A stretch of 64,000 bases of DNA from Trichobilharzia szidati (taxonomy: Eukaryota; Platyhelminthes; Trematoda; Strigeidida; Schistosomatidae), in assembly GCA_944472155.2 (NCBI GenBank), contig OX235273.1, forward strand, positions 106,042,582-106,106,581, read 5' to 3'. This document shows positions 2,861 to 61,636 of this stretch, in pieces; position 1 is the stretch's first letter; each line of letters opens with the position of its first letter. Made by a program: the position numbers and the translations under genes. The notes under the pieces are model-generated. The model saw only the letters and a list, made by a program, of their open reading frames with translations. It was not told the DNA's origin and made no database searches.

Positions 2861-4195
2861 ATTCTCAGAAATTGAATGTCAGAATTAGGTTATACACAGA
2901 ATCCACGTGTATAATTAAATTAAAAAAAAAGAACCAATTCTATTCATCAAAAGGTGTATCCTTATATTATATTATGTATGTTTCGTTTTCTTGTTTCAAT
3001 TATTATAAGAATATGTCTATCTGGCGCATACAACAGACAGAGAGAACTAGGGTAAGAGAGACATATATAGAGGGGGGGGAGAGAGACTTGCAACAATATA
3101 CACCACATTCTGACTTCAGTTGGAATCTGAAACGAGATCTTCATATACAAAATAAACAGTGACATCAATAGGAATAACATTATTATTATTATTATTATTC
3201 CTACTATCTCATCATCAAACTCGTTTAGTAAATTGAAGATGAAATAAGAACAATGACAAATTAGTGATGTCTCAGGTCTCTCTCGCTCTCTCTCTATCTT
3301 TCTAGTGATGGTGAGTAGTATAGAAAGGTGCCAGTGAGTGAGTGAGTGGAGAATCGTAGGAAGGCAGGAAGGGACGAATAAATGAAAAACGGAATACTTG
3401 GCACTTGTATTTGACAGGAATTATGCACAAAGCAATGCCTTTTACCACACACACAGCCTAGGAAAAAACCTCTACCTGAGAAACGCCTTATACCTACCTA
3501 CCTACCCACCTATCTGTCTACCTATAACTGGGGAAAGCATAGAACATGTTTTTATTTTTGTGAGCAAAAACAAAAGAAGAGAATATAATTCTCTAATAGA
3601 AGAAGAAGAAATGAGTTCGTTTTGAGGTCAGAAGCCAAAAAGGCTTATTTATCTCTGTATCCTGTATGTCTTTTCTTCTTTTTCTATAGTCAGATAAAAG
3701 AAATTTTGACGAACAAATTGTTCCTTGCCCCTTGTGTATTTATTATCACTTTTTTAATATTTGCGTGTTTGTTTGTATTATGCTTAATGACGATTGAAGA
3801 GAGATTAGTGAGAGGCTTAGAGAAATGTAGGCATGATTGACAGAAGATCTAACCTCAAGGAGGAAAGGCAACAAAATGAAGAGGGGGGACGACAGACTGT
3901 GAATAGTAGTAATAAACAAATAAAGAGGTGAGATGATGATGATTATGGTGATGATTAATCACTGGGTAAATGATAATGGACGATAGCCATCATTAAGATA
4001 AGAATATAAATTTTGTTCTTATAGTGACCATCTGTTTTTGGGAAGTATTTTAACACGCCAGTATTGTTGTTGTTGTTTTTATATTATCATTATAATAACT
4101 TTCTCCTGAGACCTATTCAATCCAAAAGGAAGAAATGAAATGGTAACCTGCTTCCACTTATTTTATAAGTAGAAGTACTGGAAAAATTGTGTCTA
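2861..4195. other. Microsatellite-rich gene-free DNA
   Basis: Contains (ATT)n at about 3,180, (CTCT)n at about 3,280, (GTGA)n at about 3,335 and (CCTA)n at about 3,500. Short open frames here consist of these simple repeats and AT-rich text. I find no supported gene. Confidence 0.5.
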
Positions 4196-7323: not shown

Positions 7324-7771
7324 TTTGATTGGACACTAGTCAGTGACTAGTGTAGTGTCTCTAGTCCTTTGTTTGGTGCAGTCTAGTTTGCAATGAGGCC
7401 ACCATGCTAGGTGGCTCGCCATCACGAAGCACTGCACTGTGATCGAACCTGGACCATGTGCATGGTCGGAGAGCGTCCTAACCGCTATGCCACACACTGC
7501 CTGTGAATTGTTGATATTAGATGGTTGGAGGCAGTCGGCAGGAAACCCTACTTCACCTAGGTTTCGTGCTAGTTGGCACTTGTCAGCAAGGCGTATCTGC
7601 CCGAATAGCTCAGTGGTAACGTCTCTGATTGCAGCACTGGGTGACTCGGGTTCGAATCTCAGAAGGGACATGACTTTCTTCAAGATTGCAGATACGCCTT
7701 GTTGACGAGTGCCAGCTAGCACGAAACATAAGTAAAGTACAGCTTCCTGCGATTGCTCCAACCATCTAAAT
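7324..7771. mobile_element. Family F inverted dimer inserted as one unit
   Basis: Minus-strand F tail (7,324-7,598, ending TAGTGTCCAATCAAA at its 3' side) abuts a plus-strand F head plus tail (7,599-7,771). The plus head has box-A-like AGCTCAGTGGTAACG and box-B-like GGGTTCGAATCTC. Two roughly 80-bp inverted arms (7,520-7,598 and 7,684-7,768) flank the tRNA-like part. The whole block lies between identical 12-bp duplications. In the plus arm the hammerhead-like core reads TTGACGA, GTGC/GCAC arms, GAAA. A SINE-C-like head fragment is nested at about 7,438-7,497 on the minus strand. Confidence 0.75.
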
Positions 7772-8458: not shown

Positions 8459-8914
8459 TTTTACAGGATTTCATCATGAGCTGACATCAGTTACAGAACC
8501 ATTAGAAAACCTGCAAGGAGTACTGGACAGCTGTTTCGTCCTAGTTTGGGACTCTTCATCAGTACGCATCCACAGGGGTTCGAACCCAGGACCTTCTGGT
8601 TACAAGGCGAGCTAGCTAGTAGACCATTAAGCCACTGGGACTGCCAATGTCGTGAATTGGCAGAAGTTAGAATTCATGGGCTGGCCACTGGATCGGGCCC
8701 CAGTGGCTTAATGGTCTACGAGCTAGCTCGCCTTGTAAACAGAAGGTCCTGGGTTCGAACCCTGGTGGGTGCGTACTGATGAAGAGTCCCAAACCAGGCT
8801 GGCGAAACAGCTGTCCAGTACTCCCTGCAGGTTTTCCAATGGTTCTGTAACTGATGTCAGCTCATGATGAAATGCTGTAACCAATCAATCAAATCCCTGC
8901 AAACCAATACTTGA
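8459..8914. mobile_element. Family B inverted dimer with target-site duplication
   Basis: Minus-strand B copy (8,459-8,645: tail, hammerhead, head) joins head-to-head with a plus-strand B copy (8,646-8,914: short 5' domain, head, hammerhead, tail). ACATTGATAAT (8,448-8,458) and ACATCGATAAT (8,915-8,925) flank it, an 11-bp duplication with one mismatch, so both halves entered together. The plus ribozyme module spans 8,773-8,821: stem I GTACTG/CAGTAC, core ATGAAGA, stem II start GTCC, GAAA, CAGCTG. The intact 3' tail (CCAATACTTGA) is only on the right. Confidence 0.85.
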
Positions 8915-8925
8915 ACATCGATAAT

Positions 8926-9317: not shown

Positions 9318-10243
9318 CTAACTACCAGTGGATTGCGTCCGCACCACTGACCTTTAATGGCCCACGTGAGTTGAAGTTTCTATTTCGCTTGATTTGAGTC
9401 AGATGCCTGCTGTAACGCAGTCGCGTTTGCTGATGATTCTAATATTTCTCAGGAACATGTTTTGCCAGGTCCCATGTGTCCTTAACCCAGATTTTGTATA
9501 TTTGTAATCACTTTGTTTTAGAACAGCCTGTGAGAAGTGTAACTGCTGAAACTCAAAATAGTCTCGTATTAGCAGTTCAGTGGTATCAGCACTGTAGGGG
9601 TATCGCATCCTGGAAAATGGAGAGGCTTACTTCCTTATTCAGAGGAGAAGGTGTCGTCATACATGTAGATGAAACTGTCTTATTAAAGAAAAAATACAGC
9701 CGTGGTCGAGGACGAACGAATAATTTTTCGGCGTTTGGTTTATATTATACCTCTCTACGGAAAGGATTCGTCGAGAGGATAGCAGATAGAAAATCAAGTA
9801 CTTTAATACCTATAGTTACTCAACTGGTGAAACAAGGATCCATAATACACACAGATGACTGGAAAGGTTATAACTCCTTGGATATCTTCACCACAGAGTC
9901 AACCATTCTAATGATTTTTTAAATTCTCTTACAGGGACCTATACCAATTCTATCCGAAGCTTTTGGGGAAGGCTAAAAAACAGGATTAAAGCTATTCACG
10001 GATCACAAAGCGGTGTCATTTATAGTCATTTAGATGGATATATGTATAGGATGTGGTGCAACTTTTGCATTGATACTCCTAAGCTAAACTGGGCGACGTT
10101 TTTATCACATGTGAGAGAAAGGTATCCTCTGTAACACTTTTACACAGCTTTTATGCATTTTTTCGTAAATATATGTAATCTATACACAAAAATGCCTCCT
10201 TCGTGTGATTGGTGCGTTCAAGGTCATTCACTTTGGTAGTTAG
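9318..10243 (+). mobile_element. Merlin/IS1595-type DNA transposon relic
   Basis: Contains the DDE transposase described separately. Possible terminal inverted repeats are CTAACTACCA at 9,318-9,327 and TGGTAGTTAG at 10,234-10,243, with weaker complementarity just inside. No clear 8-9 bp flanking duplication is visible, so the exact ends are tentative. The coding match is much stronger than the ends. Confidence 0.55.
9476..10134 (+). pseudogene. Merlin (IS1595/ISXO2-like) DDE transposase, frameshifted
   Basis: The first frame (9,476-9,920) contains HVDETVLLKKKYSRGRG with the first catalytic Asp/Glu context, then FGLYYTS, IPIV and HTDDWKGYNSL with the second catalytic Asp. Near 9,885-9,895 the frame shifts and continues as HRVNHSNDFLNS, YTNSIRSFWGRLKNRIKAIHG, SHLDGYMYR and WATFLSHVRERYPL, stopping at 10,134. 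This is the usual ISXO2-like order: DE, DxW, NHS, ESFW-like, then the C-terminal YMYRMW. The family cuts and pastes DNA. One frameshift and an absent N-terminal zinc-binding part make it inactive. Merlin elements are known from schistosomes. Confidence 0.85.
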
Positions 10244-13846: not shown

Positions 13847-14004
13847 ATTTGGTCTCTCTTGATTTATCGAAAAAGTGAGTAATAAACATGGAATTAGATT
13901 TGTAGGATTCAGTCAATGTCACAGATTACTTTTTAACAAGCGACAGGATTTTATTAGTCCCTTTAACATCTTAGTCAGTACTTATTTATTGATCTTCAAA
14001 TGTT

Positions 14005-14510
14005 ACTTTGTAGGGATTTAACGGGTTTCAAGTTTGCCGACGGATTGATATCAGTTAGAGAACCATTGAAAACCAGGGAGACTTAGACATCTATTTTGTC
14101 CCACTATGAGGCCCTTCAGCAGCACTCATCTATAACCCTACAGCCTTGGATCGAACTGAGAGCCTTCAGGTTACAAGGTAAGGTCACTTCCCATTCAGCC
14201 AATTGGGCAGAAGTCCAGTGGTCGGCTCATTTTGCAATTTTAAGCACCACCGCTAACCAATGTCATGGTCCATGGTCAAGCTTGAAACCAATTAAAGCCT
14301 TACAAACTGAAACTAGAAAACTAATCTGACGCTCACCAATAAATGTTTAGCTACAAGATGAATTTGTCTGACATTGTCTGAGGGTGACGCTAAAAATCAC
14401 CAAATGGTAGAAGTCAGAATCCCTGGGTTGGATTTTTAGATTCCATCCCAGTGGTTGAGTGGTCAACAAACTCCCCTGCTAATCTGAAAGTCTGATCTTT
14501 GAAAAACACT
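14005..14510. mobile_element. Family B inverted pair
   Basis: Minus-strand tail, hammerhead relic and head (about 14,005-14,255) are followed by plus-strand tail, 5' domain and head (about 14,256-14,500). The order on the plus side (tail, then 5' domain and head) again crosses a unit boundary. A direct repeat TGATCTT lies near each end, but I could not define a clean target-site duplication. Confidence 0.6.
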
Positions 14511-17992: not shown

Positions 17993-18119
17993 TAATTTTG
18001 GTTGCTGCCTAGTGTCCAAGTATACATTTTTCATACTGTAGCTTGGTTTGATGGTGGCGAACAATGGGATCCTGAAGCCCGGAAATCACAATAAATAGAA
18101 CATTTGACCGATTGCATAT

Positions 18120-18535
18120 CTACGCAAGGTTTACCCACGGATTGATGTCAGCTAGAGAGCCACTGAAAACTACCAAGGGGTACTGGACAGCTGTTTCGTC
18201 CTATTTTGAGATTCATCAGTAGTACCTACCCATCGGGGTTCGAATCCAGGACCCTACGTTTAAAAGGCAAGCTTGTAGACTCGATCAAAAAGGGTTCATG
18301 AATTCTAACTTCTACCAATTCGTGATTTTAGCTCGACTACCAGCCAGTGTCACTGGAGAGTATTTGTCTTTCAACTCTCATGGGTACATACTGTTGAAGA
18401 GTCCAAAATTGGGATCCACCAACAACTGTCCACTACTCCCTGATGGTTTTATCAACAGTTCTCCAACTGACATCAATCCATGATCAAACTGGAAACAAAT
18501 CAAATCCCTACAAGCCAACTCTTGAAAAACAAAAA
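18120..18535. mobile_element. Family B inverted pair
   Basis: Minus-strand tail, ribozyme module, head and 5' domain (18,120-18,370) face a plus-strand ribozyme tail (18,372-18,535; core TTGAAGA with C3 changed to T). It ends in CAAGCCAACTCTTGAAAAAC, the canonical B 3' end. The flanking duplication is not clear. Confidence 0.65.
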
Positions 18536-18539
18536 TAAT

Positions 18540-18695
18540 TTCTTTATTTAATTGAATTTTAGATTTTCCCGTCGATTGATTGGACCGAAGTTCTCGGTCT
18601 CAGGGGAATGCAGGCACATCCAGATGACGAGTCCCAAACAGGACGAAATGCGCATCCTGGATTCCACTGCTAGTCACCATACACCAATTAAATTC
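18540..18695 (+). mobile_element. Smα-like SINE (family A) with well-folded hammerhead
   Basis: The ribozyme segment 18,612-18,665 has stem I ATCCAG/CTGGAT, then A at core position 3, TGACGA, stem II GTCC/GGAC with loop CAAACA, GAAA, palindromic TGCGCA, and TC before the predicted cleavage at 18,656/18,657. All is preserved except C3. The tRNA head is truncated. The flank CACTGCTAGTCACCAT is shared with other A copies. Confidence 0.8.
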
Positions 18696-23689: not shown

Positions 23690-23905
23690 CTTTGATTGGA
23701 CACTAGCTAGTAACTACTGTGATGTGTCTAGTCCTTTGTTTGGTGCACATTGAATTCTATCAGTCACGTGTTTAGGTGACTCACCATCGCGGAACACTGT
23801 AGATTGTTGATATTAGATGGCTGAAGGCAATCAGCAGATAGCCTTGAACCTAGGTTTCGTGCTAGTTGGCACTCTTCAGCAAGGCGTATCTCTCATTTCT
23901 TGCCA
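23690..23905 (-). mobile_element. Family F tail with near-consensus hammerhead core
   Basis: On the minus strand: GCCTTG, CTGAAGA, stem II GTGC/GCAC with loop CAACTA, GAAA, then CCT/AGG hairpin arms. All conserved hammerhead core bases in these two boxes are present. A conventional stem I is not evident. The body continues to TAGTGTCCAATCAAAG. Confidence 0.65.
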
Positions 23906-26753: not shown

Positions 26754-26763
26754 AATGCTATGT
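26754..26763. repeat. Target-site duplication, left (AATGCTATGT)
   Basis: Repeats at 27,458-27,467, bracketing the family B multimer insertion. Confidence 0.65.
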
Positions 26764-27457
26764 TTCATCCTAGTCTGGGAATCACCGGCAGTACGCACCC
26801 ACCTCCACGGTTCGAACCCAGGACCTTCCAGTTACAAGGTAACCTCGTATACCACTCACCCACTGGGACCCGATTCAATGGCCAATTCATGAATTCTAAC
26901 TTCTACCAATTCGTGATGCATTTAGCGCGACCACCAACCAATGTCATCAGCGGGAAATCCATCCTCACACTTGACTGGATGGACTTCACTGGTCACGACT
27001 TCTCACTAGAACTCCAGGAAACTCCGTCCTGTAGCAAGTCATTAGCGAGCATCAGATTGATTTTGAAGAGTTGGTCTGTAAGGATTAGATTTGTTTTTTA
27101 CAGTTTGACCACGGACTGATATCAGTTAGAGAACCATTGAAAACCAGGGAGTACTGGACACCTGTTTCATCCTAGTTTGGGAATCATCAGCAGTACGCAC
27201 CGACTAGAGTGGTTGGTGGTCCCGCTAAAGTCACCACGAATTAGTAGAAGTTAGAATTCATGAACGGGTCACTGAGTAGGGTCCGACTTGTAACCAGGAG
27301 GTGCTGGATTCGTAGCCTGACGGTTGGTACGTACTGCTGATGAGTCCCTAGTTAAGACAAAACCACTGTGCGGTACTCCCTGATCGTTTCCAGTGGTCCT
27401 CTAACTGTTATCAATCCGTGGTCAAATTCGGAAAAAACAAATCTAATCCTTGAAAAT
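26764..27457. mobile_element. Family B insertion copied from a multimer of three or more units
   Basis: From the junction at about 27,205 leftward on the minus strand: hammerhead, tail, 5' domain, head, second partial hammerhead. Rightward on the plus strand: 5' domain end, head, third hammerhead, intact 3' tail. The CAGTAC marks of the two minus hammerheads (27,191 and 26,789) lie 402 bp apart. The block is bounded by a 10-bp duplication. The 3' end is intact only at the right, as expected for a 5' inversion. Confidence 0.8.
27151..27196 (-). ncRNA. Family B hammerhead with complete core
   Basis: Minus strand: stem I GTACTG/CAGTAC, core CTGATGA, stem II arms TTCC/GGAT with loop CAAACTA (first pair U-U mismatch), GAAA, CAGGTG, TC, predicted cut between 27,157 and 27,156. 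All catalytic core positions match consensus. Confidence 0.65.
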
Positions 27458-27467
27458 AATGCTATGT

Positions 27468-28055
27468 GAAATTCAAGCTGCAAAAGAGCGATATTGATAT
27501 TATTATTATTGTTATTATGACTATAATGATAATGATTATCGTTAGTTAGTCTAATTATTATTCATAAATGTTTTATTGCCTGCCTGCCTGCCTATATTTA
27601 TCTACCTAGCTATACACCTACCCATTCATCATGGTTTGAATTGAAAATATCTTTCTCTTTTTTCGCACACACGAGGACACATGTAAAAGCTCGAAGAATA
27701 TACACAATCCCCCTCCGCCCCACGAAGAGAGTTATCTAATTTACATGCAACGCCTTTTGTTCACATATTCTCCTGTTAGAGATTTTTCGCTTGCATTCAT
27801 GATGAAGATAGAGAGAGAAAGAGAGATTTTATTTTGTTGTGCAAAAGACGAAAATAAACTCTTGTCTCAATGTATTATTATGCTCTTATATAATCCCGAT
27901 AATAATAATAATAATGTGTTTACTGATTCGTATATTCATTAAATAAGAAGCCATTAACTATGTAGTAATTCAGCTGAGAGGTGTAGATGAGTAGAGAGAC
28001 AGAACAGTGAGGGAGACAGAGAGAAAAATGATAATTTCTACGTCGATTTCTTCGC
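27468..28055. other. Gene-free DNA with (ATT)n and (TGCC)n
   Basis: Microsatellites near 27,500, 27,580 and 27,900. No gene. Confidence 0.45.
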
Positions 28056-28059
28056 AAAC

Positions 28060-28380
28060 CAACACCAGTTAAAAACTGAGTGAAAACCGGGGAACACTGA
28101 ACACATGTCTCATCTTCCTAGTTTGGGACTCTTCAGCAGTATGAAACTATGACCCCACCACTGGGAATCGAATCGAAAACCTTTAAATTATGAGGAAAGC
28201 TCGTTAACGATTTAGCCCTTTGGGTTGGAATTCAACACCCAGTGGATTCTAAACTCTATCAATTCGTGATACAGGGGCTAGGATCGACCAATGCTTTCGA
28301 TAATCACCCGCTTCATCTTAACTTCGCAATATAACTACAGGAAATCCTTAAAAAATCCTAAATAAGTCTTCAGTTCACTG
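28060..28380 (-). mobile_element. Family B SINE, decayed
   Basis: Minus strand: 5' domain, head and ribozyme tail with core CTGAAGA and stem II GTCCC, but GAAA is lost (reads GATGAGA). Confidence 0.65.
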
Positions 28381-28554
28381 ATGGCTACTGGATGAATGTC
28401 CTGAAGGTGTATCAGGAAGTCATAACCAATGGGGGCCATCTTGTGGAATTCAACTGAATGTTCATTGAAGGCACTGGTTGATGATAACCTGATTATATCT
28501 TAGGCTAACAAAAACCTCCATCATATTATACTGCATATAATTTCAACCCAGTGT

Positions 28555-28742
28555 TGTGTAATTCTCGATGGACGCAAAGAAGACATATCACAATGAGTAG
28601 GTTTACGCTTCAAGTCAGACAGCAGTGTGTTACAGGATCTACTGCCTGTTAATACTTCATCTAAAGCATATACAATGAACTCTGCTGAGAACTCTGTACA
28701 TTATGTAAACAATGTTTATAATCAATCCATTATTACTGATTC
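28555..28742 (+). mobile_element. Repeat J (LINE-like 3' end), copy 1
   Basis: ATCACAATGAGTAGGTTTACG, ACAGCAGTGTGTTACAGG and CTGCTGAGAACTCTGTACAT parallel 42,150-42,360. It ends in ATTATTACT, like LINE tails at 21.15 and 33.17 kb. A LINE-R copy starts immediately after. Confidence 0.5.
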
Positions 28743-28743
28743 A

Positions 28744-29398
28744 TTATTCAACGGGAGGGATTTGAAAGAGGTTACTTCATTCACTTATCTAGGGAGCATT
28801 GTCTCAACTACAGGAGGAACGGACGAGGATGTCAAATCGAGAATCGGGAAGGCGAGAAACACATTCATCAACCTGAAACCAATCTGGAAATCTTCGTCAC
28901 TCAGCCTGCATCAACAACAAAATTCGGATTTTCAATACAAACGTCAAGTCAGTCATTTTTCTATACGGATCAGAAACTTGGCGGGTCACAAAGAATATTT
29001 CCAACAGCCTGTTGCAGACCTTTATCAACAACTGTCTTCTTGCTCTATACTGAAGATCAGATGGCCGGAAAGAATCACCAACAAGAAACTATGGGAACAA
29101 ACAAAACAAGAACCAATCGCTCAACAAATATGCAGGAGAATTGGAGATGGATTGGACACTCGCTGAGGAGGCCGCTGGGTGACATCGCGCGTCAGGCCAG
29201 TGCTCGAGTGGAACCCGAAAGGGAAGCGGCGAGTGGGACGTCCAAGGGTGACATGGAGATCGTGTGAAGAGGAGTTGAAACAGTATGGACTAACATGGAT
29301 GCAGGTGAAAAGTACAGCAGAAGACAGGAGCAAGTGGAGACGTGCAGTTGAAGCCCTATGTTTCACTAGGAACCCAAGGGAACAATAATAATAATAGA
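28744..29398 (+). pseudogene. LINE-R, C-terminal third and 3' tail
   Basis: DLKEVTSFTYLGSIVSTTGG opens the recognisable part. It then loses frame at a deletion near 28,943, continues through ILKIRWPERI and WRWIGHSLRR, and carries the shared GGCCAGTGCTCGAGTGG frameshift. The last frame gives LEWNPKGKRRVGRPRVTW. It ends with GAAGCCCTATGTTTCACTAG and (AAT)n. Confidence 0.8.
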
Positions 29399-29401
29399 TT
29401 A

Positions 29402-29605
29402 CTAATAAGTGTTAGAATTCACGGGTCAATGAATACCAGCCAAAGTAGCTGACTGATCAATGAACTTAATCTTGTGACCTGAAAGTCTTGGGTTTAGTCT
29501 CTAGTGTGGTTGTGCGTCAGTGCCAGACTAGGGAAGAAACAGCTCATATTGGTTCATGAAAAAATCGAACTCAATCCAAATCCATACAAAAACTCATAAA
29601 TTTTT
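29402..29605 (+). mobile_element. Family B SINE, decayed
   Basis: TTAGAATTCACGGGTCAATG, head remnant (CTGACTGATCAATGAACTT, TTGGGTTTAGTC), ribozyme remnant (GACTAGGGAAGAAACAGCTC), tail. Confidence 0.55.
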
Positions 29606-31245: not shown

Positions 31246-31261
31246 TGCATCCAATTTTCGA

Positions 31262-31830
31262 AACCCAGTGGGTGCGTACTGCCGATGATTCCCAAACTAG
31301 GATGAAACAGCAGCTGTCCAGTACTCCCTGGTTTTCAATGGTTCTCTAACTGATATCAGTCCGTGATCAACTCGTAAAACATAACTAATCCTTACAAACC
31401 AAACTATAGAAAATAAATCTGATACTCGCTAGTGACTTGCTACAGGATGGAGCTTCCTGGAGTTCTAGTGAGAAGTCGTGACCAGTGAGGTCCAATTAGA
31501 TGTCACGTGTGTGGATGGATGTCCCACCAACGACAATGGTTGGGGTCGCGCTAAATCACGAATTGGTAGAAGTTAGAATTCATGGGCTGGCCACTGAATC
31601 GGGTCCCAGTGGCTGAATGGTATACGAGCTTGCCTTGTAACCGGAAGGTCCTGGGTTCGAATCCCAGTGGGTGCGTACTGACGATGATTCCCAAACTAGG
31701 ATGAAACAGCAGCTGTCCAGTACTCCCTGGTTTCCAGTGGTTCTCTAACTGATATCAGTCCGTGATCAACTCGTAAAACATAACTAATACTTACAAACCA
31801 AACTATAGAAAATTACATTACTTATTATTT
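31262..31830 (+). mobile_element. Family B tandem dimer (399-nt period)
   Basis: A partial unit (end of head, hammerhead, tail; 31,262-31,425) is followed head-to-tail by a complete unit: 5' domain 31,430-31,600, head with GTGGCTGAATGGTATACGAG and GGGTTCGAATCCCAG 31,600-31,670, hammerhead 31,672-31,727, tail to 31,830. The predicted cleavage points are 31,318/31,319 and 31,717/31,718, exactly 399 nt apart. Cores read CCGATGA and ACGATGA, so both are mutated at U4. Confidence 0.85.
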
Positions 31831-33499: not shown

Positions 33500-33712
33500 C
33501 GCTTATTGAAGTTGGGACACGGATCAGTGTCAGTCAGAGAACTATTGAAAACCAGGGAGTACCTGACATATATATTGTCCTATTCTGGAACTCTTAAGCA
33601 GTACGCGAGCGGAACCCAAACGAGAATCCAGCGTATGACTCTAAGGTTAAAAAGCAAGCGCGTTAGCCATTCAGCCACTTAGATGGATTTTAACTTCTAC
33701 CAATTTACCGCC
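33500..33712 (-). mobile_element. Family B SINE
   Basis: Minus-strand head with TTGGGTTCCGCTCGCG and a ribozyme module: stem I GTACTG, core CTTAAGA, GTTCC/GGAC, GAAA lost. Confidence 0.6.
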
Positions 33713-33727
33713 ACCACTCTTTTGGAA

Positions 33728-34105
33728 GTGTGTGGGCGGTTGTTACTTCCCGGCTGCCCACACCAGTTAGTATAAGCCACGTAGGGAGGTGTAGACTTCC
33801 TGGTTGGGGACCTCGGGACAGTAAAAACCAATGTTTGGAAACAATTGGTGACATAGCTCAAAATCGTTCTCAATGGCGCAGATGCATCCACTCCTTGTGA
33901 CTTATGATTTCCAATGAAACTGTTTTGTTCTCCGTTATTACTATTCCTTTATCTCACACCTCTGTTTACTGACTATATTATGCATTTCTTCTACTTTTTT
34001 CTCTTGCTTTGTGTGCTACATGGAGTGTGGCGACTTGAACTGCCGCACATATGTGCAAAGTTCTATGTCGAAAACCGACCGACCGCCACCCATTGTCATC
34101 GAACA
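33728..34105 (+). pseudogene. LINE-W C-terminal end and 3' tail
   Basis: GGGAGGTGTAGACTTCCTGG, GGGGACCTCGGGACAGTAAA, GGTGACATAGCTCAAAATCG and CAATGGCGCAGATGCATCC encode the GRCRLPGWGPRD, DMAQNRSQWRRCIH blocks. The tail ACATGGAGTGTGGCGACTTG follows. 5'-truncated. Confidence 0.75.
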
Positions 34106-34462
34106 ATGCTAGTCCCTTCAAAATGATTAAGTGGATCTCAGTTTTGACGATTTCTCAGTAGAACTCCAGGACACTGTATCCGGTAGTCAGTCATTAATAA
34201 ACATAGCGCCGGCTTTATAAATCACAAGCTGCCAGGAGTTGGAATTCACGAGCCAGCCAATCAGCTTCATCTGAATTACCAATAGACTCGCCTCCTGGTT
34301 TCATTCCCTAGTGGGAATCATGGCGCACACTACTGAAGAGTTTCAAACTAGGACGAAACCTCTCTTTAGTGTTCCCTGACAGTTTTCAAAGGTTTCCTAA
34401 TTGATGTCAATTCATCATCTAACCTGAAACCGGTTAAATCTCTCTGGTAAACCAACAGTGTG
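34085..34462. mobile_element. Family B inverted pair
   Basis: Minus-strand 5' domain (34,085-34,212) faces a plus copy (34,214-34,462). The plus ribozyme has core CTGAAGA, stem II GTTT/GGAC (G-U pairs retained) with loop CAAACTA, and GAAA. The TTAGTG cleavage arm pairs with ACACT. Confidence 0.65.
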
Positions 34463-44934: not shown

Positions 44935-45185
44935 GAGAAAATGTGGCTGTTTCGTCCTAGTTTTAGACTCTTCAGGTGCACTCACCACGAACCCCCAGAT
45001 TACAGCAGACAAGCCTGATGACTATTCACCTACTGAGATGGAGTCCAGTAGTCCATAATTTCTAACTTCTATCACTTCTCGACACTAGTGAATAGTCTCA
45101 AACCAGCATTCTGTAGTGGTTTTCTAACGGATATCATTTTGTGTTCTAACATGAATACAATCCAATTGCATACAACCTAATACAT
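44935..45185. mobile_element. Family B inverted pair, decayed
   Basis: Minus-strand ribozyme and head (GGCTGTTTCGTCCTAG, TTCAGGTGCACTC) joined to a plus-strand 5' domain/tail remnant (GTGAATAGTCTCAAACCAGC, CTAACGGATATCA). Confidence 0.5.
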
Positions 45186-55929: not shown

Positions 55930-56424
55930 TTTTCAAGAGTTGGTTTGTAAGGATTAAATTTGTTTTTTAGGAGTTTGACCACGGATTGATATCAGTTAGA
56001 GAACCATTGAAAACCAGTCACAGGGAGTACTGGACAGCTGTTTCATCCTAGTTTTGGATTCATCGACAGTATGCCGATATCCATGGTCTAATCTGACGAA
56101 GTTGCCTGCAGTTCTAGTGAGAAGTCGTGACCAGTGGGGTCCATCCAGTTAGAAGTGAGGATGGATTTCCCACCGATGACATTGGTTAGTGGTCGCGCTA
56201 AATGCATCACGAATTGGTAGAAGGTAGAATTCATGGGTTGGTCATTGAGTCGGGTCCCAGTGGCTGAATGGTATATGAGCTTGCCTTGTAACCGGGAGGT
56301 CCTGGGTTCGAACCATGGCGGTGGGTGCGTACTGCCGATGATTCCCAAACTAGGATGAAACAGTACTCCCTGTGGCTGGTTTTCAATGCTTCTCTAACTG
56401 ATATCAATCCGTGGTCAAACTTGT
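55930..56424. mobile_element. Family B inverted dimer with perfect 13-bp target-site duplication
   Basis: Minus-strand 3' tail and hammerhead (55,930-56,085; the 3' end TCTTGAAAA is intact at the left) face a plus-strand unit with 5' domain, head (GTGGCTGAATGGTATATGAG, GGGTTCGAACC), hammerhead (CCGATGA, part deleted) and tail to 56,424. AAAATTCTTTTCA flanks it at 55,917-55,929 and 56,425-56,437. Confidence 0.85.
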
Positions 56425-56439
56425 AAAATTCTTTTCAGT

Positions 56440-57215: not shown

Positions 57216-57404
57216 TATATAAGATTTTGTCTTTCCCAAAGAATGAAAAACAAAACGATATTGTTGTGTTTACTGACGTTTTGTTATTTAATGCTGCTAA
57301 TAGCTTTATCAAAGTATGATTAGACCAGAATTAACAAAATCTCAGCTTATATGTAACAAATTAATCATCGTTCATCAGTATAGGGTAATTTTTACATTTT
57401 CAAA

Positions 57405-57632
57405 TATTGGTTTTGTAGGGATTTTGTTTGTTTGATTCGTTAGAGGATTTCATCATGAGCTGATATCAGTTAGAGAACCATTGGAAAACCTGCAGGGAGT
57501 ACTGGACATCTGTTTCGTCAGCCTAGTTTGGGAATCATCGGCAGTAAGCAACCACTAGGATTCGAACCCAGGATCTTCTGGTTACATTAAGCCATCTCGT
57601 AGACCATTAAGTCACTGGGACCCGATTTTTAC
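57405..57632 (-). mobile_element. Family B SINE
   Basis: Minus strand: head CAGTGACTTAATGGTCTACG and GGGTTCGAATCCTAG, ribozyme TTACTG, CCGATGA, TTCCC, loop CAAACTA, GG, then GAAA, CAGATG, TC, CAGTAC, tail to TTGTAGGGATT on plus. Confidence 0.75.
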
Positions 57633-59321: not shown

Positions 59322-59545
59322 GATGCGTCATGAAAAGCACTTCGAACAAACTACAGACCTTCATCAACAGCTGTCTTCTCTCAATACTCAAGATCAGATG
59401 GCCAGTCAGAAAAGATCAGCAACAGGGATCTCTGGCAATGAACGAACCAACCCAGCAGGAACGAATCGTGCAACCGATATGCAGGAAGAAACGGAGGTGG
59501 ATTGGCCATACTCTGAGAAAAGAAACCATCAAGTGAGTGACATCA
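59322..59545 (+). pseudogene. LINE-R fragment 5' of the PLE
   Basis: LQTFINSCLLSILKIRWPVR, then RKKRRWIGHTLRKETIK. It stops abruptly at GTGACATCACACC, where PLE-associated sequence begins. The LINE does not resume after the PLE. Confidence 0.7.
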
Positions 59546-59588
59546 CACCTTACTCAGTGATTTTGATATTATTTGTTGGCTTAAATTC

Positions 59589-61636
59589 ATGAATTTTATC
59601 AAAGAATTACAGTCTAAAATATCCGAGGATTATGAAACGCAGCTGACAAAAGCGTTGGTGAAAGAAAAGCTAATTGAAGAATTCCCAGAAGCACCTGAAC
59701 GCTACGTTTCTCATCTATCAAAATTACAATTAAGCAAAATCGAATTAGAAGCCTTCTCTATAGGATTCAAGTTCCACGTCCCCAAGAAGCATATCAGTCG
59801 TATAGACACAGAAGCACAATTCGAACACTTATACCATCAACTCTACGACCTGAAACCCCTAGACGAAGATAAAAGAGGATGGCTAAAGTCTAAACTCGTT
59901 GATATAGCTAACCAATACCACATATCACCAATGGAGAAGCACAAGATGCTGACAGAAGAGCATAGAATAGCTCTGAAGAAACTATATGAGAACGATGACA
60001 TCGTCATATTTAGACCTGATAAAGGCTCTGGGGTTGTTACAATGAACAAAGCTGATTATATACATAAAATGGTGACAATTCTGAACGACACAGAAAAATT
60101 CCAAGAAAAAAGGATGCCACAACGTCATTTGAAAATAAAGTAAATAAATATCTCAAAGAACTTCTAATGAAGAAACTAATCAACAGCGAAGCATACAATG
60201 AACTGAAGTCAAAAAGTGGACGCTTGCCGTTTATGTACGGCCTACCGAAAATCTATAAAGCAAATGTGCCCTTAAGACCAATCATGTCTATGATTGACTC
60301 AACATGCCACAAGCTAGCTCGATGGTTAGCTGATTCTACAGAACCGATTCGAATTAAATTTGCAACCCATAGCCTGAAGGACAGCTAACAATTTTCCAAG
60401 GAAGTAGACAATACTGATGTATCACACAAACTCATGGTATCGTACGACGTGACCTCCTTGTTTACAAACGTACCACTGATGGAAACAATTGACATCATTT
60501 GTAAACAAACGGATCTACTACCATTACCTGAAACAGAAATGAAACGACTACTGCTGCTTTGCACAAAGATATACAATCAATTTAACAACCAACTTTACCG
60601 ACAAATTGATGAGGTCGCGATGGGTTCGCCTCTGGGACCTATTCTGGCTGATATCTTCATGGACCACCTCGAACAGACACAAGTGAGTTCTGCTATCAAT
60701 GGAACAGCCTACTATCGCCGATACGTTGATGACACATTTGTTGTTTGCAACGACACGGATCACGCATCGCCATTATATGATCACCTAAATGAGACCCATC
60801 CAAACATCAAATTCACCATGGAATATGAACATAATAATGAGTTCGATTTCCTGGATCTAAATGTAGAAAGAACAAACGAAGGTACGATCGAAAAGTCCAT
60901 CTACAGAAAAGAAACCTGGACTGGACAATATCTTCACTATAACACCTTTTGTCCCATAAGCTATAAACGTGGATTACTGAGGACTTTGTACGACAGAGCC
61001 AAGAAGCTATGTTCACCGAACAAGTTGGAGGAAGAATTAGGTTTCGTTGAGAAATGACTAAGAGAAAATGGATACCCAAAGGGATTTATACAAAAGTATA
61101 GCAGAGAAAACGTTCGGAAGGAAAAACACCCAACTGTCGAAAAGAAGAAAGTGTTTATTTCTCCCCCATTCAAGGGAGATGCAGTGTCACAAAAGATTGA
61201 CAAAAGACTGAAAGGTGTAATAAAAAGAAGCTTCCCTGCAGCTAAACTCATATCATTATACAGCACCACTTCTCCTACAAACCACTCGAAACTGGATAAA
61301 TACCCTGCTGATGTCACCTCCAACTGTGTTTATGAATTTACGTGCACTTGCTGGAGCAAGTACATTGGAAGGACAGAAAGAAGGGCTTCTATCCGGTTTT
61401 CTGAACATATTCGAAGAAACCTGTGCCTGAAAGGAATCAAATATTCTCAGAGTGCAATTACCAGACATATTTTTGATACTGGTCATCTCGTAGAGATTTC
61501 TAAGTCCTTCAAAATATTAAATAGACAAAGGACAGCAAATTTACTACGATTTGCAGAAGCGATCGCAATCAAATGATTCAAACCAGACTTATGCATACAG
61601 AAAGAGAGTGTGACTAATCTCTCACTCCCTTGGTAA
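59589..61636 (+). pseudogene. Penelope-like element, nearly complete coding region
   Basis: Frame 59,589-60,143 gives the N-terminal region (IFRPDKGSGVVTMNKADYI, the usual DKG motif). A frameshift near 60,110 leads to LPFMYGLPKIYKANVPLRPI, ending at TAA 60,386. 60,390-61,057 carries the fingers/palm (VSYDVTSLFTNVPL, AMGSPLGPILADIFMDHLEQ, catalytic RRYVDDTFVVCND, FDFLDLNVER). After a TGA, 61,058-61,576 has the linker and GIY-YIG endonuclease (CVYEFTCTCW, KYIGRTERRASIRFSEH, SAITRHIFDTGH). After one more TGA it ends in NLSLPW at 61,636. About 680 codons in all, with one shift and three in-frame stops. It is the reference PLE of this window. Confidence 0.9.

Follow-up and report, generated by a model that had tools for sequence, protein, structure and literature searches.

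The window analysed here is a stretch of 64,000 nucleotides (C3:106042582-106106581) from the 1.11-Gb genome of Trichobilharzia szidati, an avian schistosome (PMC4465651). It carries copies of family B, a non-coding repeat of ~395-400 bases with a hammerhead motif. The copy of principal interest consists of one full unit preceded by part of another. Its features are listed below, where S and L denote the short and long 3'-end sites.

31257..31811, plus strand: family B copy, a partial upstream unit (from consensus position 245) followed by one full unit; partial tandem, 553 nt of consensus
31276..31324, plus strand: first hammerhead-like module; CCGAUGA core with U/U at 10.1/11.1; cut predicted after 31318; Rfam 30.3 bits
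31410..31808, plus strand: complete 399-nt unit, used as the reference unit u1-u399
31603..31675, plus strand: tRNA-like head directly before the ribozyme; RF00005, 20.0 bits over its full length (gathering 29)
31610..31620, plus strand: A-box-like string TGGCTGAATGG
31654..31664, plus strand: B-box-like string GGTTCGAATCC
31675..31723, plus strand: second hammerhead-like module; ACGAUGA core; cut predicted after 31717; Rfam 27.0 bits
31778..31813, plus strand: AC-rich tail of ~35 nt between the S and L sites; the dimer copy ends at L

The initial annotation had described two head-to-tail modules with predicted cuts exactly 399 nt apart and one complete unit between them, and both points are confirmed by the sequence (cuts after 31318 and 31717). 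The 158-nt stretches around the two modules share 96.8% identity. In a whole-window search the modules at 31276 and 31675 matched Hammerhead_1 (RF00163, type I) with E values of 0.0018 and 0.022, respectively, and neither is among the nine hammerhead matches of the window that reach the Rfam gathering score (34 bits). U/U occupies 10.1/11.1 in both, and CCGAUGA and ACGAUGA stand where an intact core would have CUGANGA, a point that the initial annotation had not noted. Because both cores are mutated, these two modules are expected to be weak or dead. The same core rule has been applied for judging hammerhead activity in Schistosoma mansoni (PMC8490949).

The tRNA-like head proposed earlier is matched by RF00005 over its full length and holds the A- and B-box-like strings. 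Its score, however, lies below the gathering level, as do those of other B heads (17.0 and 22.6 bits). ARAGORN found no tRNA in the window nor, run with its default settings, in the B consensus. Relaxing the threshold gave six weak candidates in a doubled B consensus, one position lying over the head.

Family B is represented in the window by 35 profile-HMM segments (11.6% of the sequence), which bears out an early count of more than 20 copies in 64 kb, and it makes up 10.0% of 50 kb sampled elsewhere in the genome (five 10-kb stretches, chosen by position only). The majority consensus of the window copies is 398 nt long, with a GC content of 47% and an intact core (CUGAAGA..GAAA..GUC). Five window copies exceed the Rfam gathering threshold, and a core-motif scan of the window gave four matches, one with an intact core. 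An antisense reading frame of B found no match among proteins, pattern scans of viral and bacterial contigs found none, and a text search of papers for the letters of B returned one chance match only.

Other hammerhead families are also present. Stems I and III of B differ from those of the window copies closest to the Rfam consensus, which we take to be Smalpha-like (family A). B had been characterised from the outset as a ribozyme-bearing, retrozyme- or Smalpha-like element distinct in sequence from these copies, and this description stands. The Smalpha-like copies at 1314-1358 and 18618-18662 (both plus strand) have strong hammerhead scores (64.4 bits at 18618) and have A in place of C at the third position of the core, a change also found in some B copies. 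Family C has its own stem sequences and occurs at 23841-23885 (minus), 7528-7604 (minus) and 7696-7740 (plus); its core is intact at 23841, and a tRNA-like head was recognised by eye at 7696. At 9443-9922 (plus) lies an ORF with a DDE_Tnp_IS1595 domain (PF12762), presumably a Merlin-like transposase.

Ends and orientation of family B copies

Adjacent B copies in the window lie head to head in eight cases, and in none do they lie tail to tail or in the same direction (35 segments merged by hand to 32 copies, neighbours within 100 bp). Random placement gave 0.42 pairs of each opposed kind, with head-to-head pairs never exceeding five in 100,000 runs. The five 10-kb stretches chosen by position hold five head-to-head, no tail-to-tail and one same-strand B pair. 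The window pairs are given below together with two further insertions; 3' ends in the window were assigned by hand, mainly from 26/28 rows, in bins set after the data had been viewed.

8459..8915: head-to-head B pair with S on the left and L on the right; duplication ACATTGATAAT/ACATCGATAAT
13995..14502: head-to-head B pair, old; plus-arm end not classed
18110..18527: head-to-head B pair with S on the left and L on the right, without a clear target duplication
26761..27464: head-to-head B pair, minus arm longer than one unit and ending at consensus 297; duplication AATGCTATGT
28034..29544: head-to-head B pair, plus arm apparently interrupted by ~0.9 kb of another repeat
33504..34456: head-to-head B pair, minus arm apparently interrupted by ~0.36 kb
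44945..45180: head-to-head B pair, minus arm ending at consensus 299
55931..56427: head-to-head B pair with L on the left and S on the right; duplication AAAATTCTTTTCA
57398..57627, minus strand: single 5'-truncated B copy with the long end; 16-bp direct repeat with 1 mismatch
7325..7771: family C head-to-head pair inside a B copy; 12-bp duplication CAAGGTGGATTC

Window B copies are mostly old. For the copy at 31257-31811 no clear target duplication was found, 5 of 26 control flanks being equally good. Because the best matches for old window copies were mostly no better than those of other flanks, the duplication test was shifted to young loci. A mixed arrangement was observed at 1045-1392, where a minus-strand B copy abuts a plus-strand Smalpha-like copy head to head at 1221-1223. 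By eye, no clear duplication surrounds it; it is possibly one insertion from two different RNAs.

The young loci comprise the 37 best matches to a single 182-nt query from the window dimer, with the window itself excluded (40 scored of 2,681 candidates). They contain 61 segments with at least 90% identity, of which 31 end at S (u360-380) and 26 at L (u394-399 or u1-10); the remaining four end at u11, u13, u241 and u345, two of them just beyond L. S and L are ~35 nt apart and lie ~60 and ~96 nt downstream of the predicted cut. The proposal that B units are delimited by the hammerhead folds is contradicted by this distribution, with 57 of the 61 segments ending at S or L. The preferred phase of ~400 nt predicted alongside it is real, but S and L rather than the ribozyme cut determine it.

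Pairing in the young loci follows the pattern of the window. An automated count (gap up to 30, segment identity at least 85%) gave 27 adjacent pairs, 26 of them head to head, one on the same strand and none tail to tail. The outer ends of the 26 are L/S in 20 pairs (one of these, in L030, depends on a 33-nt segment), S/S in two and L/L in none, and four pairs have another end; both outer ends are therefore the 3' end of the element in 22 of 26. Twenty-one of the 26 are flanked as a single insertion by a duplication that measures 10 bp or more and has no more than one mismatch, most often 12 bp (nine pairs) or 13 bp (five pairs) long. Among 39 tries with mismatched flanks as a control, no match exceeded 9 bp. 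Across 23 duplications (the manual set plus L034, with pairs L028, L030, L031 and L045 excluded), the AT content is 80%, against 62% for the loci.

The head-to-head arms are 5'-truncated and joined with short microhomology, overlapping by 1-4 bp in 15 of the 26 pairs (range, 6-bp overlap to 22-bp gap). Arms are more alike within a pair (96.6% identity) than across pairs (95.2%; n = 20, none of 5,000 permutations as high). Seventeen segments in the 37 loci are unpaired, four of which have a duplication of at least 10 bp. L034 was counted as unpaired and is by eye a pair with unlike ends and a 12-bp repeat, AACAGTATATCT. The initial annotation had presented B as a head-to-tail tandem dimer, tandem arrangement being among the hallmarks of retrozyme or Smalpha-like elements. 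The commonest adjacency, which it missed, is instead the head-to-head pair within one duplication, and a true tandem array does occur in the intact subfamily described below.

This anatomy bears on whether B could be a tRNA-derived SINE of the usual sort, mobilised by a LINE, with head-to-head copies that are twin-priming inversions. The tRNA-like head, the 5' truncation and the target duplications would all agree with such an origin. In the twin priming of LINEs (LINE-1), however, only one outer end is the 3' end of the element, whereas both outer ends lie at S or L in most B pairs; twin priming was dropped as an account of the pairs on these grounds. The paired insertions are double-ended rather than single-ended as in LINE-type insertion, which leaves the 17 unpaired segments, and inspection by eye revealed neither a poly-A nor a simple-repeat tail on B copies. 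Mobilisation as a LINE-dependent SINE is therefore highly improbable.

The hammerhead and a 394-bp tandem array

In the 37 loci, which were selected by likeness to a mutated window copy, an intact CUGANGA core was found in only two of 73 modules. This count gave rise to the reading that the mobile subfamily has a dead ribozyme and that the hammerhead is dispensable family-wide. It was withdrawn in view of 2,851 exact genome occurrences of the intact 35-letter hammerhead motif, compared with none for a backwards-pattern control; one of two mutated core variants has 45 exact genome copies. In six fetched stretches, picked for their array-, pair- or dimer-like look among the matches listed (start of C1), the intact subfamily scores 54.1 bits against RF00163. 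The hammerhead covariance model suggested initially as a check thus recognises the intact form, whereas the copies to which the annotation had pointed fall below threshold (30.3 and 27.0 bits).

These counts also bear on the idea that the modules resemble hammerheads by chance or without being functional. The modules at 31276 and 31675 score below gathering and have mutated cores, and for 20 of the 37 loci the list at E values up to 5 includes few young modules, as would be expected of look-alikes. Against this, the intact subfamily scores well above the gathering level, and its exact motif is abundant in the genome, unlike the backwards pattern. In addition, 10 of 14 stem pairs are changed on both sides between families A (Smalpha-like), B and C, and 88.1% of cells pair, against 20-38% in slid versions, in a test on nine of 16 aligned sequences, a selection that raises the percentage. 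Left out were B31276, B31675, B8773, B54801, B57499 and B28094, owing to stem II/III insertions or misalignment, and C7696, in which stem I is unpaired as printed. That the modules are chance or non-functional resemblances is scarcely credible in light of this evidence.

The intact form is found in insertions of the same type. L073, L074 and L075 are each head to head, with L and S ends and a perfect 12-bp duplication. L076 is a 606-nt partial tandem that ends at L and has a diverged minus arm; no duplication was found there. A long hairpin, made up of the head-to-head tRNA-like arms at L075:439-538, matches the miRNA family mir-607 with 65.2 bits (gathering 94), and head-to-head B pairs may be mistaken for miRNA genes.

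The most extended case is an array at C1:1661180-1686312, which spans 25,133 bp, or 63.8 units of 394 bp. It contains 64 intact motifs at an exact spacing of 394 bp (C1:1661362-1686218). No mismatch occurs in the 1,534 nt read at both ends, the middle being known from motif positions. In front of the array lies an inverted arm of 183 nt, likewise with 0 mismatches. This arm ends at S on the left, the array ends at L on the right, and both are enclosed by one 13-bp duplication, AAAGTGAAGATGT; four joins examined as a control gave at most 7 bp. Because it has an S end, an L end and one duplication around the whole, the array is framed like any single insertion.

The array is accounted for most simply by reverse transcription running many times around a 394-nt RNA circle. 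For the intact subfamily, we would place the likelihood of an RNA-circle template slightly below even. The copies of the 37 loci and the window dimer are short by comparison, none of the 61 young segments exceeding 544 nt and the dimer measuring 553 nt (a 548-nt join at 77% identity in L030 is omitted from this comparison). Their lengths fit a circle template for the intact form, without being proof of it.

Alternatively, the array could have grown to 64 units once it was in place, through unequal crossing over or slippage during replication, or a long multimeric transcript could have been its template. Expansion of satellites is commonplace. Arrays of hammerhead units of 399-402 bp on the W chromosome of S. 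mansoni offer a precedent (PMC8490949). The absence of mismatches in the letters read and the exact spacing of all motifs speak against it, as do the Penelope-type ends and the duplication that enclose both array and inverted arm; recent expansion of a short insertion would still accommodate them. We regard an origin of this kind as having an even chance.

Another possibility is a retrozyme whose inserted unit is bounded by hammerhead cleavage, with head-to-tail dimers as the product. The 399-nt spacing of the modules, the partial tandems and the array, in which every 394-bp unit read has one intact ribozyme, are what such an element would leave. Two old minus arms in the window, at 26761 and 44946, also stop 4-6 nt before the cut at 303, at consensus 297 and 299; cleaved RNA was perhaps their template. 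Ends of this kind are absent from the young copies, none of the 61 segments ending within 20 nt of the cut at u308, and copies with mutated cores have been inserted all the same, as the scarcity of intact modules in the 37 loci attests. An inserted unit with hammerhead-cut boundaries is thus quite improbable. Since mutated-core copies also occur as such insertions, their sequences suggest that hammerhead cleavage is probably unneeded for insertion as such.

A Penelope-like element in the same genome

A candidate for the machinery that inserts B is a Penelope-like element (PLE), one copy of which lies in the window.

59541..61576, plus strand: PLE copy with three open stretches, read as 5'-truncated; reverse transcriptase (RT) domain PF00078 in 60389-61057; best named relatives from Trichobilharzia

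The element would be Penelope-like to judge from its RT match, architecture and relatives. RVT_1 was the only Pfam match on it, and its sequence carries what we take to be a GIY-YIG signature. It is abundant in the genome, where 150 of 66,613 candidates were scored; many ~815-codon open frames, ~2.8-kb tandems and head-to-head neighbours occur among these matches. Tandem runs with a ~2.8-kb period were observed at C4:102767613-102776675 and C8:1488397-1500257 (G000), most with 815-codon frames. A hammerhead-like motif was recognised by eye before the start codon, and no hammerhead was detected in the PLE with Rfam.

The PLE resembles B in how its copies end. Among 18 PLE 3' ends chosen by hand, nine lie near L055:3162, five at 3188-3189, two at 3199-3202 and two elsewhere. 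These three clusters, compared with two for B, fall at +32, +58 and +69 from a cut read by eye, compared with about +60 and +96 for B. Direct repeats surround three head-to-head PLE insertions, with lengths of 12 bp (L053), 12 bp (L060) and 16 bp with 1 mismatch (L052), against 12 or 13 bp in 14 of 21 duplications of B; the PLE set is limited to these three pairs, and one of its 12-bp repeats is of low complexity. Because the family C pair inside a B copy also has a 12-bp duplication, the Penelope-type scar is not confined to B.

In sequence, the PLE L ends and the L end of the window consensus of B have the last letters CTTGAAAA in common. The L end of the young 399-nt B subfamily is TATAGAAAA, not CTTGAAAA. 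No similarity between B and the PLE was detectable beyond this short 3'-end motif, and the idea that B is a relative of the PLE's own sequence was dropped for lack of similarity. B matches in the PLE loci L056 and L057 are B copies beside the PLE.

Because both outer ends of the pairs lie at two fixed 3' sites, with the longer tail mostly on one arm, PLE machinery is indicated. Judging from these sequence features, we consider it about 85% probable that B is a non-coding, non-autonomous element inserted by that machinery. B would consist of a tRNA-like head, a type I hammerhead and ~95 nt with two start sites for reverse transcription. Insertion would begin with a staggered double cut at an AT-rich target, reverse transcription would be primed from both target strands on B RNA at S or L, and the two cDNAs would be joined to give head-to-head arms. 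In the intact subfamily, circles of RNA made by the ribozyme could serve as template, and many laps would then yield a tandem array in one insertion. Formation of such circles is compatible with insertion by PLE machinery.

The most far-reaching version of this proposal holds that Penelope machinery made ~64 laps of a 394-nt hammerhead-made circle, creating the 25-kb array and its inverted arm in one step, and that ribozyme-bearing SINE-like repeats, which form about one-tenth of the DNA sampled here, are generally parasites of Penelope elements and not of LINEs. We advance it tentatively, the odds leaning somewhat against it.

Comparison with known systems

PLEs of other animals provide the closest parallel for the insertion anatomy of B. 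In the rotifer Adineta vaga, they have head-to-head arms, an optional 31-bp tail and duplications of 8-10 bp, as opposed to mostly 12-13 bp in B, and Arkhipova's paper ascribes the arms to self-priming on an antisense template, not to priming from both target strands (PMC3846280). The purified protein of an Anolis PLE cuts and extends both strands at AT-rich targets, and two adjacent internal start sites account for a tail of 30-40 bp (PMC11167929). Mutations in the hammerhead leave insertion in vitro unaffected, and the main start can be computed to lie ~85-92 nt downstream of the hammerhead cut (cut +26, start 111-118; PMC11167929). The published PLE signature also includes partial tandems (PMC11167929, PMC3846280). 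B shares the head-to-head arms, partial tandems, optional tail, AT-rich target and a hammerhead upstream of the start sites with these elements. Unlike them, it has a tRNA-like head and no PLE-like frame was seen in it; B would be a non-autonomous user of the machinery.

As a kind, B belongs with the Smalpha/W-elements and the metazoan retrozymes. Smalpha, Sjalpha and the W-elements W25.2, W26.2, W27.2 and W36.2 are likewise non-coding and bear a type I hammerhead. Their monomers measure ~330-430 bp and are tandem on the W chromosome and dispersed on autosomes, and the W25.2 and W36.2 motifs cleave in vitro (PMC8490949). Because the W26.2 monomer of S. mansoni is 399-402 bp long and contains a hammerhead (W27.2, 403 bp), B is probably a relative of the Smalpha/W-elements, as judged from length, motif and host kinship. 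The PLE scars described here come from another genus than the S. mansoni W elements, for which PMC8490949 gives one presumptive target duplication (W25.2); the words 'tRNA', 'polymerase III', 'retrozyme' and 'head-to-head' do not occur in its main text. By description, B can also be likened to a tRNA-Gln-TTG-derived SINE of S. mansoni, which has a tRNA-like head and is related to Smalpha (PMC2770079).

Metazoan retrozymes are characterised by a type I hammerhead in tandem repeats of 150-450 bp, from dimers to multimers (PMC7229834). The same association of a type I hammerhead with short tandem repeats is found in the 394-bp array and in the partial tandems. Unlike these retrozymes, B copies are mainly dispersed, often as head-to-head pairs, and the GC content of the B consensus (47%) lies above the <45% given for them. 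Hammerhead repeats in other animals yield RNA circles, and PLEs were named as a strong candidate for mobilisation on the basis of shared hammerheads, tandem copies and co-existence (PMC7229834). The same authors describe the metazoan repeats as lacking a conserved motif that would indicate the machinery (PMC7761336).

Which machinery moves animal hammerhead repeats was left open in these two papers (PMC7229834, PMC7761336). Here the insertion scars of 26 pairs point to PLEs, and since the genome also contains a possible partner, a single purified protein and a single RNA would suffice to test the question directly. No report of PLE scars on hammerhead repeats was found in the open-licence literature, a weak negative; as far as these searches go, the insertion anatomy of B, its possible Penelope partner and an array inside one duplication are new. 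An array within a single target duplication would provide a route from ribozyme-made circle to satellite DNA, which is relevant to the W-chromosome satellites of schistosomes.
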